Shown: positions 2,656 through 18,411 of the stretch, piece by piece
Layout: the number at the start of each line of letters is the position of its first letter
Numbering within the stretch: position 1 is the first letter of the stretch
Source of the DNA: Odontesthes bonariensis
Taxonomy: Eukaryota; Chordata; Actinopteri; Atheriniformes; Atherinopsidae
Assembly: GCF_027942865.1 (NCBI RefSeq)
Contig: NC_134510.1
Coordinates: 37,131,663 to 37,195,662 of the forward strand
Direction of reading: 5' to 3'
DNA length: 64,000 nucleotides
Position numbers and translations under genes: made by a program
The notes under the pieces: generated by a model
Seen by the model: the letters and a program-made list of their open reading frames with translations, nothing else
What the model was told of the DNA's origin: nothing
Database searches by the model: none

Positions 2656-3455
2656 TAAACTAAGTGAACCCCTGATCCAGCAGCTGGTAGCAGCAGTGAG
2701 TGAGAAACTAAGTGAACCCCTGATCCAGCAGCTGGTAGCAGCAGCAGTGAGAAACTAAGTGAACCCCTGATCCAGCAGCTGGTAGCAGCAGTGAGTGAGA
2801 AACTAAGTGAACCCCTGATCCAGCAGCCGGTAGCAGCAGTGAGTGAGAAACTAAGTGAACCCCTGATCCAGCAGCCGGTAGCAGCAGTGTGTGAGAAACT
2901 AAGTGAACCCCTGATCCAGCAGCCGGTAGCAGCAGTGAGTGAGAAACTAAGTGAACCCCTGATCCAGCAGCTGGTAGCAGCAGTGAGGGAGAAACTAAGT
3001 GAACCCCTGATCCAGCAGCTGGTAGCAGCAGTGTGTGAGAAACTAAGTGAACCCCTGATCCAGCAGCTGGTAGCAGCAGTGTGTGAGAAACTAAGTGAAC
3101 CCCTGATCCAGCAGCTGGTAGCAGCAGTGTGTGAGAAACTAAGTGAACCCCTGATCCAGCAGCTGGTAGCAGCAGTGTGTGAGAAACTAAGTGAACCCCT
3201 GATCCAGCAGCCGGTAGCAGCAGTGTGTGAGAAACTAAGTGAACCCCTGATCCAGCAGCTGGTAGCAGCAGTGTGTGAGAAACTAAGTGAACCCCTGATC
3301 CAGCAGCTGGTAGCAGCAGTGAGTGAGAAACTAAGTGAACCCCTGATCCAGCAGCCGGTAGCAGCAGTGTGTGAGAAACTAAGTGAACCCCTGATCCAGC
3401 AGCTGGTAGCAGCAGTGAGTGAGAAACTAAGTGAACCCCTGATCCAGCAGCTGGT
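2656..3455. repeat. 48-bp minisatellite, about 16-17 copies
   Basis: Near-identical 48-bp units containing 'gaacccctgatccagcag'. The second unit appears one base short; the others differ by a few substitutions (agct/agcc, gagt/tgtg). Because 48 is a multiple of 3, both strands carry long open frames (repeat units such as EKLSEPLIQQ on the + strand), but these are artefacts of periodicity. The array lies in intron 1 of gene A and abuts a Tc1 relic. Confidence 0.93.
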
Positions 3456-3720: not shown

Positions 3721-4754
3721 TTGGTCAGTCTTTTCCCGCTGTGCTCTCACCTGGTCGACACATAGATGTTTTATCTGATTCCTGGAGCTGATGCAGCCAG
3801 CACACGTTGCAGCGCACATGGGCCTGATCGGATCTGATAATCAAGATGAAAATGATCCGAAAGGTTTTTGTGGGCCACGTTTTTCTGAGAAGTGAAGGGC
3901 TGTGCTTTGCTTTTTTCTCTGAACTGTAACCTGATAAACCTGATAAACCTGATAAACCTGTTCCCTGTTGTGCTGACCCACAAAACTATCTCACTGATAC
4001 TCTAATGTAGAGTTACAGAAACAATTCATGGCTTTATGATATTTAGACACTCATTTATTTTGACTTCATTAATGTCTTATGGACATCTATTTTTTTTTAA
4101 AAAGGCTTTCCACACGTGAAAATCCAGATTTTCTTTAGTTTAGGCTGTAGTAGCTACATTCCTGCGTATGGATAAGTGGAAACAACTCCCCTTTTAATTT
4201 TAGCTAGTTTTAACTCCCCTTTTAGCGTAAACTGAGAGAAAGTTTAAATATCTTTCTTGGAAAGATGAGTCAAAGCAGCGATTTCAGCAATCAGACCTAA
4301 ACCAAAGGCTGTAGTTGTTAGTTTTAATTTGTTGTTTTTATCCATAACTTCAAAATGTAGAGAAGAAGAAGAGATATTCCTTTGTTTCTTACATTCCAAC
4401 GCTCCTTTAACCTCTGACCTCGTGCTGAATGTGGTCCGAGGTTAAAGAGATCCACAGGATTTAATTCATGTAAAGTCAAAGTAAATTACTTATCCAACAT
4501 AAAAGTAAAGATAACACACAGACAGTCGTTGTTTGGCTCTCCCAGCATCATGACACTATGATTAAACTCATTGATACGAGCACAGCTCCCCCTGGTGGTG
4601 AGAGGCCCAACATGTTGGAGCTGTTAAATACCGCTGGAGACATGATGGATGATGTCCTGGATCAATCATGAAGCATTTGATGATGGAGCTCTTAGACTTA
4701 TTTGTCGCCCTATCTGCTAATTTGTGCTAATTTATTTAATCTTTAATATTTCAG
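3721..4754. other. Rest of gene A intron 1
   Basis: No coding signal. Holds a short array of the 9-base unit 'cctgataaa' at 3930-3960 and a CTCF-like core (ccccctggtggtgag) near 4588-4602. Confidence 0.4.
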
Positions 4755-9732: not shown

Positions 9733-12700
9733 ATGAATTCGGTAGAAAACAAAACTCTTGACTCGTACCTGCGCGACGACGAGGCTCTGGTGGTGGAAAA
9801 CGCCATCCGGTTAGCGATAGACTCCATATTAAACGTGCTGTACGCTGTAAACAGCGCGAAGACTGACGAGTACCAACGTATGGTGGCCGAGAGGGACAAA
9901 GAGATCCAGCGGCTGGAGGGCAGGGTGACGGAGATCGAGCTGCAGGCACTGAAATGCACATGTGAGCTGTTTGGATCCGAGCCCGACGGAGCCCGGATCT
10001 CCGGTGACCCACGGAGAGGCGAGCAGAGCGGGCTTGAACCTGAGATTCCGGCCGGGCCGCAGGAGCCTGAAGTGGGGCTATCCTGTGAGTAAATATGGGC
10101 TCCCACAGCTGAGCGGTTTACCCGGATTTCACAGCTTAAAGTCTGAAGTATTAACCAAGTTAATGTCATTTTATATCTTTACCAGTTCGAGTGTCTGTGG
10201 ACTATATAAAATAATGTTGGGCTCCAGGAATACAAACAAGATCTCGTAGAAAATGTCCAGAAAATTACCTCGAAATGAGGCTCAGAGTCGCTGGAGACGA
10301 TTAACATGAAACATTTATTCTTGCAGCAAGGAGACAAGTCTGCGGCGCAACATATCAGGAAGCTGGCCCAGAGTTGTCTGAGTTCAAAAAATGATGTTAT
10401 TTATGTTCCTCACCAGCCACACAATGTTATGAGAACTAAAAGATAGGAGACATAGCCCAGTACAGCTTTTTCTCATAGTATAACTTCATGTTTTTTTAAA
10501 AGATTTGTGCAGACATGTCCAAGTTTCAAAGCTTCCCTGCATGAATGTGGCATATTTTCGCTGTTTGCCCCCCCCCCCCCAAGAGCTGTGGGATGTTTCC
10601 ATCTGAACCCTGCACACGCACAGCTGTGCACTTTGATTCGTTGTCATGCTGATGCTGCTCACAAAGTGGGGTAATATTACAGGACTTAGCTGTCTTTTTC
10701 AGATTTTTGGAGGGATCTGAATGTGGCGTTGGCACATTTTATTTATCACATTTCCATGTGTTGCAAGATTGCAGAAAACACTTTGAAAGTATGCCAAATG
10801 TCAAGATTTTGGTGTGAAATTAGCTAAAAACGACTTTTACACGTTAGTCTGAAGCAGAACTGAGGAGCTAACTGAGGCTTATTTTGTGAGACAGAGGTGA
10901 TAACAATAAGGTTAAAACTTATGTTCAATCTCTGATAAATATCATAACAGGGACGGACAAACTGCTGTTGAAATATTGTGCGTTTCGTGTTAATCATGAT
11001 GTGAAACATTCAGCTTCGGTCTCCTGATTTACAGCAGACGGAGAAATGATCATCACGGTCGTGTTCTTTTCATCAGTTTAAGTCAGTGATACTCTATTTT
11101 TTTCACCAGAGCCACATTGGCAGCAAAATCAAGGGAAGAGCCACTTTTACGACAACATACTAAGTTCCCCTTTTGCAAATATGCATTTCTACATATAAAA
11201 CGTCCCACAAAAAAGAAACAACACAGCCAATACATTTTAAATTCAGACCACATTTACCTTAATACTGGGATGAGCGGAAGCTGGCGTGCATGTCCTTGAC
11301 TTTCTTCATGTTGTATTTGTAGTTTGTTGTTGTAATCATAGTGACACATTCAGGATGAGTATGGTTTTTGTGCTGGTTTTTGTCCTTTTTTAATTAAAAA
11401 CTGATCCATTGTGCCTGCATCTCGCGCTGGCTAAAGGAGCTAGCTGCTCTGCGGTCAAGTGTGAGGTGGTTTAAGCGGGCTGTGTTGCCAGGTTTAACAG
11501 TTCCCCCTTTAGGAAACACCATTAAGCCTTAATTAATACTTAATGAAAATACTTAAGACTACAAAAACACAAAATTAATAAAAATACTTAATACTGTGCA
11601 GTATTCGCTGTATGTTATTTGAGAAAATGTATCGTTATTGTTACCATATTGTTATAAGCTACTATGCGAGTGCGAGCCGCCAATTAAAGCTTGAGGAGCC
11701 GCGCAATGAGTATCTCTGTTTTAACAGTATATTTAAGTGTAATTAAAATGTAGTTACCCAAACAGTAACGAAGGCTTTCCTTTTTTCTCCACAGTGGGTA
11801 TTTTTGTACAACCTTCGTCTCATTTCTCCTCCGAAAGCCACGTTTCAGCTCTTCTATCTGCGCCCAGCGGACGGGGCTCAGAGGCTTCGGAGGAGGCCGG
11901 AAATCTACCGGCGTCTCCCTGCAACCTCGTTGTCAAAGAGGAGCCCTGTGACATCGAGACTTTCTCAATAAAGTTGGAGTTGAGTGAGGAAGGGTTTACA
12001 GAGCATGAGGAGAAGGAAGGCAACCCGAGTCGGGATGAAGAGAGTCCGAGTGCGGAAAGTAAGCCGGAATCATGCTTCTAAATACCTAAAGTATCAAAGC
12101 TTCATTCCTTTGGACTCTTTATTTAATATCAGAAGCATTCCTTCTTGGTTCTGCTGAGGCAGTGTTGTTTTTATGTGGAAATAATGTAGTGTGTGATACA
12201 GAAGAAAATGTTCATTCTCTCCAGATTCTGTGGAAAACCCGGAAATCAGGGAGGAACCTGAAGAAGAGCCAGACGGACCTCGGATCACCGAGGAGCTCCA
12301 GAGGTGAGTTATGGACACAGAAAACTAAAGAAATCATTAAAAAAGTAAATAAACTAAAGGCCCGGTCACACATCCCTCCACGGGCATATCGCGGCCGAAT
12401 CACGGCCAAAAATTTCTGCCCGTGAAGCAGACGCTGTGGAAAATGTGCAAAATTGGCTTACCCGCGGTTTACCTGTGGTATGCCCGCGGAACAGACGCCG
12501 GCGACTGTTCCGCGTCCTTATCGCGGGTGAAGCGCGGCGGTACCGCGGCCTACCACGGGTATAATAAAGCAGCCGAACCGGGCTGTAGAAATCATAACCG
12601 CTCAAGACACAGTCCCGTGAAGATGGCACCGAAGAAGAAGCAGCGTGCGAGCAAGAAGCCTTTGGCGAAGGCAGCAAATGAAGGCAGCCCAGTGCCAGTG

Positions 12701-15700
12701 GAGGCCGCCAAGAAGCCCAAGGCAGGAGTCACAGTGGAGGTGCAAGCTGTCGTCCACTCTGCTGCCGAAGTTCCGAGTGTTCGTGGCGAGGTCGAGGCCA
12801 GTCCTGCTGTGAGTCCAACAGCTGCCAGTCTAGAAGAGGAGGAAGAATCTCTTGATGGTGAGTACAATTTATGTTATAATTTTTTACATTTTTAAATCTT
12901 CGTCAATGAATGGTGGACCACTGTTCGTTCAAAATTCATTCATTTAAAGAAAAAAGTTGTTATGCATTATAGAAGATAGCAGTAGGAAATATTTTTTTAA
13001 AATTATTTTGCGTACACTATTAATTTTGAGTAACGTGCAATGCATACTGCGATTAGAAACAATTTAATGGGAGGATATTTTATCTCGTGTGCCAAATTTG
13101 GAATGAAAAGCATGTCGCTGAAGAAATGATCCCCCCCAAAAAAATTATTATTTGTATGTATATTTTTTATAAACGAATATTGTTCATTAAAAAATACTTT
13201 TATTATTCTGCCTTTTCAGGTGTTACATCTGCTGCCACCACCACTGCTGCCACCACCACCCCTGTGACCACACCCGCTGCCAACACTGGGGAGGGCGCCA
13301 TGCGAGTGGAGGAGGAGGATCCTGTGTCGGAAGAGCCTGGTTCTCCGAAATCCCCGGAACCCACCCCACGTCAAGAAGAGGAGGAGGAAGAGGAGGAGCA
13401 AGAGCCGGGTCGCAAAAAGCAGAAGGGCAAGGGCAAGGGCAAGAGGAAGGCTGATGGTGCTCCCAAGCAAGCTTGGAGTCTCCCAGACGAGGTACAGCAG
13501 GATCTGGTTGAGTGGCTTCAGGCCAACTCTTACCTTTGGCTCCGGAGCAGCAAGGATTACCATAAGAAGAAGTCAGCGTGGGAGATGAAGGCACAAGAGA
13601 TCGGGGTCACGTTCAAGCATCTGCAGAACTGGTGGAAGAACGTTAAAGATTGGTACGTAAAGCTATCCAAGAAGACGAGTGGCCAGGCAACAAAGCTGTT
13701 GACGGATAGGGACAAGTGGGTGCTGAAGAACATTGCCTTCTACAAAAGTAAGTACATGTCATTACATTTATTTGAAAAATTTTGAAATTTCAATAAAATA
13801 GTTCAATATAGTAATTTTATTGTATACATTTTTGACAAATTTTGCCTTAATTTGTTTATTTTTGTAAAGACATTTAATATATTTCTTCGCTTCTTGCGCC
13901 CTCTAGTGTTACAACAAAAACACTGCAATATCATTCATCCTGAGGACACACAGTATATTTCTCATATATATTTTAACATAAAGTTTATTAAACTTCATTT
14001 AACTTTATTCAAAAACTACATTTCAAAACTATATTCCAAAAGTATATTCCAAAAAATTGTTGAAGTGATTAAATGTATACAATGCTTTAACATGTTTTAA
14101 TGCAAACTGTCAATGCCATCATATTAAACAAACGTTTAACTTGTTTCAGGTTCCATCCCCACTGAGGCTCCAGACACCCTCGTCAGTCTGCCACGTGCCC
14201 TCTCTGCTAATGCTACTGCCTCGTCTGCTGCATCTGCTGCTGCCTCGACCTTCCATGCACTGCCCTCGCTGGAAACTCATGACTCTGTGGAAAGCCAGTT
14301 TAACATCCTGGAAGAGATGGAATTGGCAGCAGCGGAGCAGGGCTCGACCACGTCTAGTCGCCGGTGCAAGAGGAGGAGGAGGGATGAGGAGAGCCTAGAG
14401 GAGGAGAGCTGGATGCAGGAACTGCGTTCTACCATGAAGGCCAACCAGGCACTGCTGGAGAAGCTGCTGGAGGAGAGGTCTAAGGCTCAGTCAGACCGAG
14501 AGGCCTTCACCCGCTATGTGTCTGATACGCTCCGCACTGCTCCCCAGGAGCAGTACTCTGTCATGAAGGAGCTCATCACGGATATTATGCGTGAGGGAGG
14601 ACAGGGTCAACGTGACAGCAGCCGTGACACTCAAGGGCCTTCTTCATCATGGGCCAGACCGGGCCCCTCAGCGTCTGCACCAGCAGCATGCACAGCCTCC
14701 TCACAACCCTACTGCAGTCAGACCTACTACAAGCAGCAGCAGTACTACCAGCCCCAGCCCAACTACGACCAGTGGAGCAACTGGCAGTATGGTGGTGGTC
14801 AGCAGCAGGTTCTCCAGCAGCAGCACCAGCAGGTTACCCAGCAACCACTACAGACTCTCAACACCCCGAACCTTTCCACAACTTCACCTGGCCAAGCAAG
14901 ACCTTACGTTGCCTCATGGGACCAAGCCAGTCAGGTCCGTCAGGCTGATGAGACCTCCTCGGATGCTACGGAGTAGTGTGTGCTTTGTGACTGATTTGTG
15001 ATTTTGTGACTGATTTGTGATATCTTTATATTACTGTGTTTTTATGCTGTGGTTGATTGGCTATATTTATGCCTTACTGTTAACTTCACTGTTTTTGATA
15101 ACTTTGATATAATAATAAAGTTGTACTGTTGTTAAATTGTTAGCATTTGTTTGTGTTTCCTAGGTAAATAAAATAAAGTGTGTGAATTGTGTGTAATAAA
15201 AATGAAAAACTATTACAATAATAAAATATTAGTAAATTTCAAATGGCAAGAAATAAAAATTAGATTAAGACATTTATCTTCTACAAAGTACAGACGATAA
15301 TAATTTTAATCCAATTTTTTTTTATTGTTTTCTTATATTTCCACCACCCCCAACACAAACAATCAAAGAAATACAGCAATTCGACAGCACCACTCCATGA
15401 TGAGGTTCCTCTGAGCCTTGGCTCTCCTGAAATCTCTATTGTTTCCTGGTACTCGGTCAGGTCTCGTGTCGTCAAGGTTCCTGCCTGCACGCCAGGCACC
15501 AGGCACCAGGGCTCCATTTGGACGCTCGAAATCCACCAGTCTGTTCTGCATCACCGGGTAACGTGTTCTCATCAGGTTGTGGAGGAGTACACACGCCTTG
15601 ACCAGGAGCCTCACAGTGTCAGCTTCATGCATCATGTTAGTCAGGAGAATTTGAAATCGGTTGGCAAGGATGCCAAACGAATTCTCAACTACCCTTCTGG

Positions 15701-18411
15701 CTCGCGACAGTCTATAGTTGAATATCCTCTGCTTCCTGGTCATGTCCTTGCTTCCATGCGGCTTCATCATGTAGGTCCGGAGTGCGAAAGCATCATCTCC
15801 CACCAGAAAGTAAGGTATATCCTCAGTGTCACCTGGGAGAGGATCAGGCTGTGGGAACCCAATAATGTCATTGTTCTGGAGACCCTCTCTGAAATCACTT
15901 GCATTGTAGATGTCGGCATCAGACGAAGACCCCTTGCCGCTTACGTCTATCCAGAGGAACTTGTAGTCAGATGTGACGACTGCCAGGAGGATGACACTGA
16001 AGAAGCCCTTGTAGTTGAAGTAGTCGGACCCAGTGTTGGCAGGAGATTTACAGGCAATGTGCTTGCCGTCTATTGCACCAATGACATGCGGAAAGTTCCA
16101 ACTGTTCATCCAATTGTCACTAATCTGACGCCACTCTGCAGCAGTCTGTGGTGGCGCGAGCAGCTCATCACGGAACTCCTCGACGATGGCCGCACACACT
16201 TCGCGCAACACCAGACTGATGGTGTTGTGAGGGACCCTCCAGGCGTACTGCATCTCACGGTACTTGGCGCCAGAAGCAAGGTGCCTCAGGGTGAGGGCAA
16301 CCTTCAGGCCTGGATCAAGGGGTGCTCGCCACTTTGTGGTCTTCTTGGTAAGGGCTGGTGTCAGTCTCTGCACAATTTCATCGAACATGGCAGGTGGCAT
16401 TCTCATGAAATTATGGAAGGCCCTTGGATCTTCATTACGGAGCTCCACCATGAGACGATCATACAGCCCCTGCTCAGGTCTCCTGCCAATCCAGTCGCGC
16501 ACCCAGATGTTCCGGACCACCATCCTCCTCCTCCTTCGTCTTCTTCGGTCAATGAGGAGCTGATGGATCTGTAACACTTGGTTCTGATGCTGCTGGAGCA
16601 GCAAGACGAGGTCATTACTGTGACGGGGATCCATGTTCACCCCTTGACGTCTGGAGCACAACTGACGAATGCTCGGCAAATCGCGGAGAAAGGCATTTTG
16701 TCCGTGCTTACACGCGGTACACACGCTAATGCACGTGATAACAACGCGGTACAGACGCGGAACAAACGTGTTATGACCGTGCTCCACCCGCGATTACCCA
16801 CTGATCCTACCGCGTGTAACCACGTCTTAACCGCGGCCGTAGCACGTCCCAGCACGTTCGTTCCGCGTCTGTACCGCGTCTTTACCGCGTGTGTACAACG
16901 TGTACCGCCCGCGATAACCCGCGGTCTAAAGTTTTGGGCAGCCCAAAACTTTTTCGCGCGGCCAACCGCGTGTGAATTTCTTACCGCGTGTAACGACGGG
17001 TGAAGTACGGCTGTATCGCGTCTCAATCGCGACCTCAAAACGTCCAACAGCGTCTGCTTCACGGGCAGACAGTTTTGGCCGTGATTCGGCCGCGAAATGC
17101 CCGTGGAGGACATGTGTGACCGGGCCTTAAGTGAGAATTAGATGTTTATTAAAGAAGAAACTGCTCAGACACACTGGCTTGTGTTTAGCTCGTTTATTTT
17201 TCCTGATATTGTTTAGTTTCACATCCACTTCTAACCTTTTCTTACCCGTCGTTCTCCGCAGAAACAAGAGAAGGAATGTGCCGATGTCCCAGCTGCCGGA
17301 GGAGGCTCGGACGCTGAAGAGGGCCGCCTGGAGAGCCGCCTCCCGGCGGTATTACGCCCGGAAAATAGCCCGCCAGCAGACGCACTCCTCGCGCTCCGGC
17401 CCCTTTTTCCTGATCACAAACTCCCGGAAGTCTCAGCCCAACTGTTTTACGGACAAGAGAAGAAGAACTCTGATGTCATTGTTAACGGAGGAGTCTCAGC
17501 CCAGCTGTCTTATGGACAAAAGAAGAAGAACAACTCCAGTGTTACCTAAGGAGTCTCAGCCCAACTGTTTTACGGACAAAAGAAGAAGAAGAACTCCAGA
17601 GTTACCTGAGGAGTCTCAGCCCAGCTGTCTTATGGACAAAAGAAGAAGAAGAACTCCAGTGTTACCTGAGGAGTCTCAGCCCAGCTGTCTTATGGACAAA
17701 AGAAGAAGAAGAACTCCAGTGTTACCTGAGGAGTCTCAGCCCAGCTGTCTTATGGACAAAAGAAGAAGAAGAACTCCAGTGTTACCTGAGGAGTCTCAGC
17801 CCAGCTGTCTTATGGACAAAAGAAGAAGAAGAACTCCAGTGTTACCTGAGGAGTCTCAGCCCAACTGTTTTACAGACAAAAGAAGAAGAAGAACTCCAGT
17901 GTTACCTGAGGAGTCTCAGCCCAGCTGTCTTAAGGACAAAAGAAGAAGAAGAACTCCAGTGTTACCTGAGGAGTCTCAGCCCAGCTGTCTTATGGACAAA
18001 AGAAGAAGAAGAACTCCAGTGTTACCTGAGGAGTCTCAGCCCAGCTGTCTTATGGACAAAAGAAGAAGAACTCCAGTGTTACCTGAGGAGTCTCAGCCCA
18101 GCTGTCTTATGGACAAAAGAAGAAGCAGAACTCTGGAATCATTGTTAACGGAGGAGTCTCAGCCCAACTGTTTTGCGGACAAAAGAAGAAGAAGAAGTAC
18201 TCTGATATCGGAGTTACCTGAGGAGTCTCAGACGTTACGGAGGGAGGCGTGGAGAGCCGCGTCCAGGAGGTACTACGCTCGCAAAGTTGCTCGCCAGACC
18301 GAGAGCATGCAATTTGGATTCCTGTTCGAGAACTTAAACTCATCTGGGGCCATGCGGGGGCCGAACGGGGAAGGACCCCACACTAACGGCGGAGGAATCA
18401 TGTGCAGCTGA
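9733..18411 (+). CDS. Gene B: coiled-coil protein with Arg-rich 20-aa repeats
   Basis: Four exons join in one frame at consensus GT-AG sites: 9733-10084, 11795-12058, 12225-12303 and 17262-18411 (TGA), predicting 614 aa. Residues about 40-80 form a charged coiled coil (ERDKEIQRLEGR), like exon 1 of gene A. Exons 2 and 3 are Glu-rich and include VKEEPCD, a possible SUMO site typical of the N-termini of fish zinc-finger genes. No zinc fingers follow. Exon 4 has a basic motif RAAWRAASRRYYARK near residue 250, thirteen Arg-rich repeat units (about 289-554), and a second copy of the basic motif near 560. The motif recalls a bZIP basic region, but no leucine zipper follows, so nuclear or DNA binding is only inferred. 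I do not recognise the family. Intron 3 is about 188 bp once its Harbinger insertion is removed. AATAAA signals lie at 18551 and 18568. Consistent phases across four exons argue that the gene is intact. Confidence 0.72.
10085..11083. other. Gene B intron 1, first part
   Basis: No coding signal or repeat recognised apart from a C homopolymer near 10567. The donor is GTGAGT at 10085. Confidence 0.4.
11084..11718. mobile_element. Old hAT-type non-autonomous element
   Basis: Begins CAGTGATACTC and ends GAGTATCTCTG, so the ends are inverted repeats with a hAT-like CAG start. The 8-bp flanks (gtttaagt and ttttaaca) match only partly, as in an aged duplication. No ORF inside. Lies in intron 1 of gene B. 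Confidence 0.55.
12623..14976 (+). CDS. Harbinger MADF-domain DNA-binding protein
   Basis: Three exons in phase (12623-12857, 13220-13747, 14150-14976; GT-AG) predict 529 aa. The start MAPKKKQRASKK is Lys-rich and may act as a nuclear localisation signal. An acidic stretch and a KGKGKGKRK cluster follow. Residues about 168-235 resemble a MADF (Myb/SANT-related) domain with the aromatic pattern LVEWLQANSYLW, then WEMKAQEIGV, then LQNWWKNVKDWY. Residues about 335-385 are helical and probably coiled-coil. The C-terminus is rich in Gln and Tyr. In studied Harbinger transposons the Myb-like partner binds subterminal DNA and brings the transposase to the nucleus; this role is inferred here. A polyadenylation signal is near 15113. 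Not a host gene, since it lies wholly between the transposon ends. Confidence 0.85.
15363..16634 (-). CDS. Harbinger DDE transposase (HARBI1-like)
   Basis: 423 aa from the ATG at 16632-16634 (MDPRHSNDLVLLLQQHQ). The open frame extends 51 codons further upstream, but that part lies in the CCGCG-rich subterminal DNA. An Arg run (RRRRRRRR) precedes the helical N-terminal domain. The DDE_Tnp_4 core shows the three catalytic acids: D189 in VIGAIDGKH, D280 in LVGDDAF and E317 in RARRVVENSFG. No stop or frameshift interrupts it and its length is normal for the superfamily, so the enzyme could be functional. It catalyses cut-and-paste excision and integration with its MADF/Myb partner. It is transcribed opposite to gene B and to the MADF gene. 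Confidence 0.92.
   Translation of the reverse strand: MDPRHSNDLVLLLQQHQNQVLQIHQLLIDRRRRRRRRMVVRNIWVRDWIGRRPEQGLYDRLMVELRNEDPRAFHNFMRMPPAMFDEIVQRLTPALTKKTTKWRAPLDPGLKVALTLRHLASGAKYREMQYAWRVPHNTISLVLREVCAAIVEEFRDELLAPPQTAAEWRQISDNWMNSWNFPHVIGAIDGKHIACKSPANTGSDYFNYKGFFSVILLAVVTSDYKFLWIDVSGKGSSSDADIYNASDFREGLQNNDIIGFPQPDPLPGDTEDIPYFLVGDDAFALRTYMMKPHGSKDMTRKQRIFNYRLSRARRVVENSFGILANRFQILLTNMMHEADTVRLLVKACVLLHNLMRTRYPVMQNRLVDFERPNGALVPGAWRAGRNLDDTRPDRVPGNNRDFRRAKAQRNLIMEWCCRIAVFL
17431..18230 (+). repeat. 60-bp coding minisatellite in gene B exon 4
   Basis: Thirteen units with the protein pattern ESQPSCLMDKRRRRTPVLPE and the variants NCFTDK, SCLKDK and NCFADK. Seven or eight central units are nearly identical at the DNA level. 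The outer units are more diverged, and one unit lacks an Arg codon. All length changes are multiples of three, so the frame is kept. Confidence 0.95.

Follow-up and report, generated by a model that had tools for sequence, protein, structure and literature searches.

The window (the whole stretch of 64,000 nucleotides that was analysed) contains a 4770-bp element at 12358-17127 with TAA on either side. Local alignment of its ends gave inverted repeats of 83 bp on the left and 85 bp on the right, with few differences between them. We found the transposase frame open on the minus strand, 423 aa counted from the ATG, with D189 in GAIDGKH, D280 in VGDDAF and E317 in ENSFG; residues 188-353 match PF13359 DDE_Tnp_4 in Pfam (E=1.4e-28). 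The partner protein (529 aa) is encoded by three exons with GT..AG introns and consistent phases, and its exon 2 matches PF10545 MADF in Pfam (E=4.6e-5), by the slight margin of 24.1 bits against a cut-off of 22. No further Pfam domain scored above cut-off beside MADF and the transposase's own, and a search of solved structures gave no match for the transposase and one meaningless match for the partner (E = 0.94). The first-pass annotation had described a PIF/Harbinger transposon with a TAA duplication, inverted ends of about 80 bp, an uninterrupted transposase with these three catalytic residues and a three-exon MADF partner with consistent phases. All of this is borne out, the superfamily by the DDE_Tnp_4 and MADF domains together with TWA duplications and terminal inverted repeats.

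Table 1. Coordinates of the element and of the host exons around it in the window
Feature	Position	Strand	Remark
Upstream host exon, end part	12200..12303	+	phase-consistent junction
Left target site duplication, TAA	12355..12357	no strand	
Left terminal inverted repeat, 83 bp	12358..12440	+	local alignment to right end
Left arm	12358..12622	+	CCGCG/CGCGG matches 10, at 7 distinct places
Partner gene exon 1	12623..12857	+	
Partner gene exon 2, MADF domain PF10545	13220..13747	+	Pfam
Partner gene exon 3, stop codon included	14150..14976	+	
Transposase gene, 423 aa, DDE_Tnp_4, D189 D280 E317, altered C-terminal tail	15363..16634	-	
Missing-DNA point, ~164 bp (kept in L009, L010, L011)	15386..15387	no strand	
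Right arm	16635..17127	+	CCGCG/CGCGG matches 18, at 16 distinct places
Right terminal inverted repeat, 85 bp	17043..17127	-	
Right target site duplication, TAA	17128..17130	no strand	
Downstream host exon	17262..18411	+	frame open as far as 18411, phase-consistent junction

The host exon ending at 12303 and the one starting at 17262 join in phase. Hence, the element sits in a host intron, as had been proposed. Two tandem arrays lie within long open frames of the window, one of 12.7 copies of a 60-bp unit (17429-18196) and one of 16.7 copies of a 48-bp unit (2657-3455). Within the right arm, about 160 bp (16732-16891) align at about 73% to the arm's own reverse complement, forming a long imperfect palindrome that is also present in many other copies of the element.

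We searched the 945-Mb genome, probably that of a fish to judge by its size and repeats, with the transposase and found 40 candidates, all of which were scored. Four match nearly the whole transposase query or most of it at 98-100%: the window copy, L009 (C20), L010 (C21) and L011 (C13), the match in L011 covering 999 of 1101 bases. The others are four distant relatives (L053-L056, 66-69%) and 32 short overlaps from deleted copies. The partner exons gave four candidates, at the same four loci. L009 alone among the four gene-bearing copies of the assembly has both genes open and a full transposase tail; L010 has an open partner and a frameshifted transposase that ends after residue 342, and L011 is truncated (positions 1-377 and about 4142-4287 are gone), so it lacks the starts of both genes. 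The distant relatives form an older, broken Harbinger family with 66-69% DNA identity in the transposase, and L053 and L055 carry partner-related sequence near the old transposase and convergent with it, as in the window element.

The census came to 45 copies: four with genes, 39 short copies with a readable junction and two for which only the left end was found (L032 and L044). Beyond the window, 44 more copies with one end or both were thus fetched; hence, the window element is not a product of chance. The right arm gave 44 candidates, the best 40 of which were scored; all 40 were already in the census and match at 92% or more, and since the census has 43 right arms, about one copy may be missing from it. 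No old copies of the family were found among these best 40 of 44 right arms. The first-pass annotation had asked for near-identical copies at different TWA sites, and these are there, as four copies with genes and 41 that are short or one-ended, mostly at TTA/TAA targets. Its opposite case, a single old copy, does not describe a family of 45, and an old single relic is ruled out by the multiple young copies that the left-end and transposase searches returned. One short copy, L042, is flanked on both sides by a direct repeat of about 300 bp at 99.7%.

The window copy had been called complete, and this did not hold. Compared with L009, L010 and L011, it lacks about 164 bp from the 3' end of its transposase gene. 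The L009 transposase ends in NSPAGRVPWQDDMLLPRF, and the window copy has CRIAVFL in place of those last 18 residues (7 for 18). Three of the four distant relatives (L053, L055 and L056, 66-69% DNA identity) keep the tail motif NS-AG-VPWQD-M, so the long tail is most likely the ancestral form, which the window copy would have lost; the match to L054 stops at residue 390, short of the tail. Since its transposase tail is lost, the window copy is probably non-autonomous or impaired.

The window copy also has the most private substitutions. Across the positions common to the long copies we counted 35 (plus 8 unpolarised) in the window copy, 11 (plus 3) in L009 and 10 (plus 1) in L010, with L011 used to polarise; as L011 is not a true outgroup, some of the window changes could be ancestral, and nine more substitution sites are common to the window copy and L011. 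Nonsynonymous and synonymous changes against the majority number 7 and 4 in the window transposase (altered tail excluded), 0 and 2 in L009 and 0 and 1 in L010; for the partner the figures are 7 and 3, 3 and 4, and 5 and 2. Hence, strong constraint is not visible in the window transposase. In 2000 simulated trials both frames stayed open in 54% after 16 random coding substitutions and in 43% after 20, so open frames by themselves are weak evidence. Three of the four private changes in the window copy's ends occur in no other copy covering those sites, and the fourth occurs also in L038; hence, the window copy has no visible derivatives.

The short copies outnumber the long ones by about 10:1. 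The 39 with a readable junction fall into 14 junction classes of 1-8 copies each, and because one of them, L030, resembles a secondary deletion inside the 348/4218 class and is probably such, the classes record at least 13 independent deletions. Breakpoints lie near the inner edges of the CCGCG-rich arms (left 195-373, right 4040-4372), and the copy with the rightmost breakpoint (L040, 4372) has lost the innermost right CCGCG sites. Positions 1-195 of the left arm are retained at every junction, and L050 lacks 1-135. Spans are 593-1003 bp for 38 of the 39, among them L050 at 779 bp with part of its left end missing; L045 spans 1558 bp and holds a nested insertion. This 626-bp insert (oriented 1455-2080) lies in the right arm of L045, has inverted ends (first and last 40 bases, TATCGCAAGCC...) and has TAACCG repeated at its junctions. 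Being internally deleted, with the ends and the target of an autonomous-type element, the short copies fit the description of Tourist-like MITEs. In yeast, as described in PMC10288884, PIF/Pong/Harbinger elements of smaller size undergo excision and insertion more frequently, and small size is a plausible reason for the dominance of the short copies.

The arms retained by the short copies are rich in CCGCG. We found 28 matches to this motif or its complement (both strands) at 23 distinct places in the 758 bp of the arms and none in the 4012-bp body; a first-order Markov model predicts a mean of 5.7 for the arms, with a maximum of 17 in 2000 trials, and 1.9 for the body. The CGCG cores are often spaced by 11, 21-22 or 31-33 bp. 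This periodicity gave P = 0.02 with periods of 7-16 bp all allowed and 0 of 2000 trials at 10.4-11.0 bp, a range picked after the spacings had been seen, and helical spacing of the cores is suggestive only. Once inserted, copies change at CGCG sites as fast as at other CpGs (0.91% vs 0.84%). Because the partner of zebrafish Harbinger3_DR binds a 9-bp subterminal motif, as stated in PMC9710019, the array suggests, by analogy, putative sites for the partner protein.

The copies have diverged little. The left ends are identical over their first 143 bp in 24 of 40 scored places, the window included, these being the best 40 of 86 candidates. Over up to 594 end positions per copy, 126 of 25390 positions depart from the majority (0.50%); four short copies (L017, L026, L028 and L031) have no change over all 594 positions, and the most diverged, L029, has 10 in 533. 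Outside CpG the departure is 62 of 18428 (0.34%), against 0.84-0.91% at CpG. Fish mutation rates are a few 1e-9 per site per year, and at this rate the end divergence would make the family's insertions of the order of a million years old or less. Recent activity of the family is well supported by these comparisons, and recent mobility, which the first-pass annotation had suggested for the element, stands at the level of the family, with its 45 copies and its identical left ends. L009 and L010 have changes in common at positions 92 and 4749 that no short copy carries, and the changes of the window copy are largely private; hence, none of the long copies in the assembly has the appearance of an immediate progenitor of the short forms, and that progenitor may be gone. 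The lack of old copies suggests that the family may have arrived recently by horizontal transfer.

The 44 fetched copies have TTA (18), TAA (14), TAT (1) or TGA (1) duplicated at their ends, and ten are without an exact match. The ten include L011, L032 and L044, each missing an end; L013, with TAA and its last element base changed; L046, with TAA/ATA; and L009, L023, L025, L034 and L038, with a left TAA and a right TTA. With the window copy (TAA) included, L019 and L020 counted once (their flanks are 99.7-99.8% identical) and L050 taken as TAA despite its partly deleted left end, there are 41 independent two-ended insertions. Thirty-five of these have matching duplications (17 TTA, 16 TAA, 1 TAT and 1 TGA), five are TAA/TTA and one is TAA/ATA. 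Hence, 33 of the 41 have a matching TWA duplication.

The five TAA/TTA insertions exceed what mutation predicts. At 0.5%, point mutation should have given 0.41 middle-base changes of any kind, and five were seen (about 12-fold, P about 7e-5), which rules it out as the cause. All five have the same arrangement, for which the two-sided chance is 0.06. We searched for paralogues of the flanks of these five copies, of L039 and of the window copy; all five gave a repeat or paralogue match (L025 through the flanks of L039), as did L039, and the window copy gave none. The repeat hit by L025 and L039 (371 candidates) has a single TTA in 12 of the 12 empty loci fetched; 19 matches read TTA in 16 cases and TCA in one, with two not covering the site, from a query that held TTA. 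In the repeat hit by L038 (390 candidates), 10 of the 10 empty sites fetched read TTA, and switching the query to TAA, a control that covers L038 only, returned the same best 40 places with lower scores (195 and 191 vs 199 and 196 bits); hence, TTA is their true state and not an artefact of the query. For L023 (195 candidates), 10 of the 10 empty sites fetched read TAA, though the query held TTA. L009 has one paralogue, at 75%, which reads TTG, i.e. a middle T, and the L034 site lies at the edge of another repeat, with a query that itself held TTA. By these comparisons the odd end is clearly the left one in L025 and L038 and the right one in L023, and is probably the left one in L009, from its one weak paralogue. 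Read along the 5' strand of the element itself, the odd end is 5'-TAA in each of these, weakly so for L009, and L034 is uninformative. Ectopic recombination between copies is ruled out, since the flanks are contiguous in the empty paralogues of L025, L038 and L023, and weakly so for L009.

A possible reading, which we put forward tentatively, is that the mismatches are scars of donor-site carry-over, in which a base of the old 3-nt 5' overhang would be ligated in about 1/8 of insertions, always as 5'-TAA beside the element's 5' end. Carry-over with the A:A mismatch resolved in favour of the element would leave 5'-TAA at the odd end; a gap-filling error that inserts A predicts the same pattern and may equally produce TAA/TTA duplications. 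For mPing, donor-derived three-nucleotide TTA/TAA overhangs have been described at Cas9-cut targets (PMC11254759), and 5' overhangs in the duplication have been deduced from non-matching constructs (PMC4561436). In the accessible parts of the literature on mPing and Harbinger target duplications we found no description of natural non-matching duplication scars of Harbinger elements, and one could still be in print. If carry-over is true, each mismatched copy records one base of its former site. Such scars make overhang carry-over in free transposition testable from genome sequence.

L025 (oriented 811-1733) and L039 (oriented 867-1792) are different short forms that lie at exactly the same base in two copies of a high-copy repeat. 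Their left flanks are 94% identical over 341 bp and their right flanks 82% over 78 bp, and the elements themselves are at most 0.5% from the majority. The shared base may reflect a hot target or something else.

We consider it very probable that the window element belongs to a young TWA-group PIF/Harbinger cut-and-paste family, with arms presumably bound by the partner, short forms presumably moved in trans and a window copy probably impaired by the loss of its tail. The MADF partner would bind the CCGCG-rich subterminal arms and recruit the DDE transposase; a staggered cut within the 3-bp duplication would then free the element for insertion at a new TWA site. Long copies would repeatedly lose their middle with both arms kept, and the resulting short forms would be mobilised in trans. 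The window copy would have entered the host intron and then lost its transposase tail. It is unlikely that this copy is instead a fully active autonomous element whose tail change is harmless: the catalytic residues and both frames are intact, but the other three gene-bearing copies keep the tail DNA, three of the four distant relatives keep the tail itself, no copy visibly derives from the window element, and it has both more private changes and the 7 nonsynonymous to 4 synonymous changes in its transposase. Frames that stay intact within a host intron would also be expected of a host gene domesticated from a Harbinger, a reading that we regard as barely credible given the intact inverted ends and duplication, the mobile relatives and changes without clear constraint.

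At the level of the family, a recent burst may have ended in extinction, with no working transposase left in the species; this comes close to an even chance but falls a little short of it. Private changes occur in every long copy, and one of the four gene-bearing copies is left with both genes open and a full tail; against this, the transposase of that copy has no nonsynonymous change from the long-copy majority, and four short copies are without end changes. That the family is a fish member of NuwaI, NuwaII, Pangu or ISL2EU, outside the TWA group of PIF/Harbinger, is very improbable. These too have DDE transposases of the same superfamily, as described in PMC4482050, but the duplications here are TTA/TAA and not CWG (0 of the 44 fetched copies, as against NuwaI) or AT (all being 3 bp, as against ISL2EU), and a single TAT is of the ANT-like kind. 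The C (or G) that flanks the TNA target of NuwaII is not fixed, occurring at 29 of 80 symmetrised positions. The partner is a MADF protein, with no other Pfam domain above cut-off besides the transposase's own, and YqaJ had no match in the four pieces scanned.

The TWA-group reading accords with published systems. In PMC4482050, PIF/Harbinger is characterised by TWA duplications and a pair of ORFs, one DDE and one Myb/SANT, and the window element has DDE_Tnp_4, a MADF second gene, a 3-bp TWA duplication and terminal inverted repeats; its family is a TWA-group PIF/Harbinger of standard, already known architecture. The first-pass annotation had taken vertebrate Harbingers to be usually broken copies or MITEs; the same source gives a count of 88 eukaryotic PIF/Harbinger families that keep both ORFs intact and are potentially active, so that an unbroken pair of genes is not exceptional. 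PMC9179366 deals with Harbingers of fishes that have Myb-like partners, and with the expression of these elements; they and Harbinger3_DR (PMC9710019) resemble the window element in having two genes, DDE and a Myb/SANT-like partner, 3-bp duplications and fish hosts. By published description they differ in inverted ends of usually 25-50 bp (PMC9179366), against 83-85 bp here, in a partner that here scores as MADF, a term absent from the accessible part of PMC9179366, and in the CCGCG-rich arms, which set the window element apart. PIF elements with a MADF partner are already known (PMC9710019), and the insect pairs described there have a DDE transposase, a MADF protein and a 3-bp duplication in common with the window element but belong to an insect lineage and were studied as domesticated pairs. 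Rice Ping/Pong/mPing (PMC4561436, PMC11254759, PMC9921582, PMC10288884) have, by these descriptions, the same TTA/TAA target with the middle base of the duplication free, and a short derivative, mPing, that is moved by proteins of longer elements; unlike the window's family, they are plant elements with 15-bp inverted ends.

A single vertebrate genome holds a two-gene Harbinger with unbroken genes, its damaged sister inside a host intron and no fewer than 13 independent short derivatives, all of them young, and the family is good material for studying the origin of short forms and the way in which they displace the parent element.
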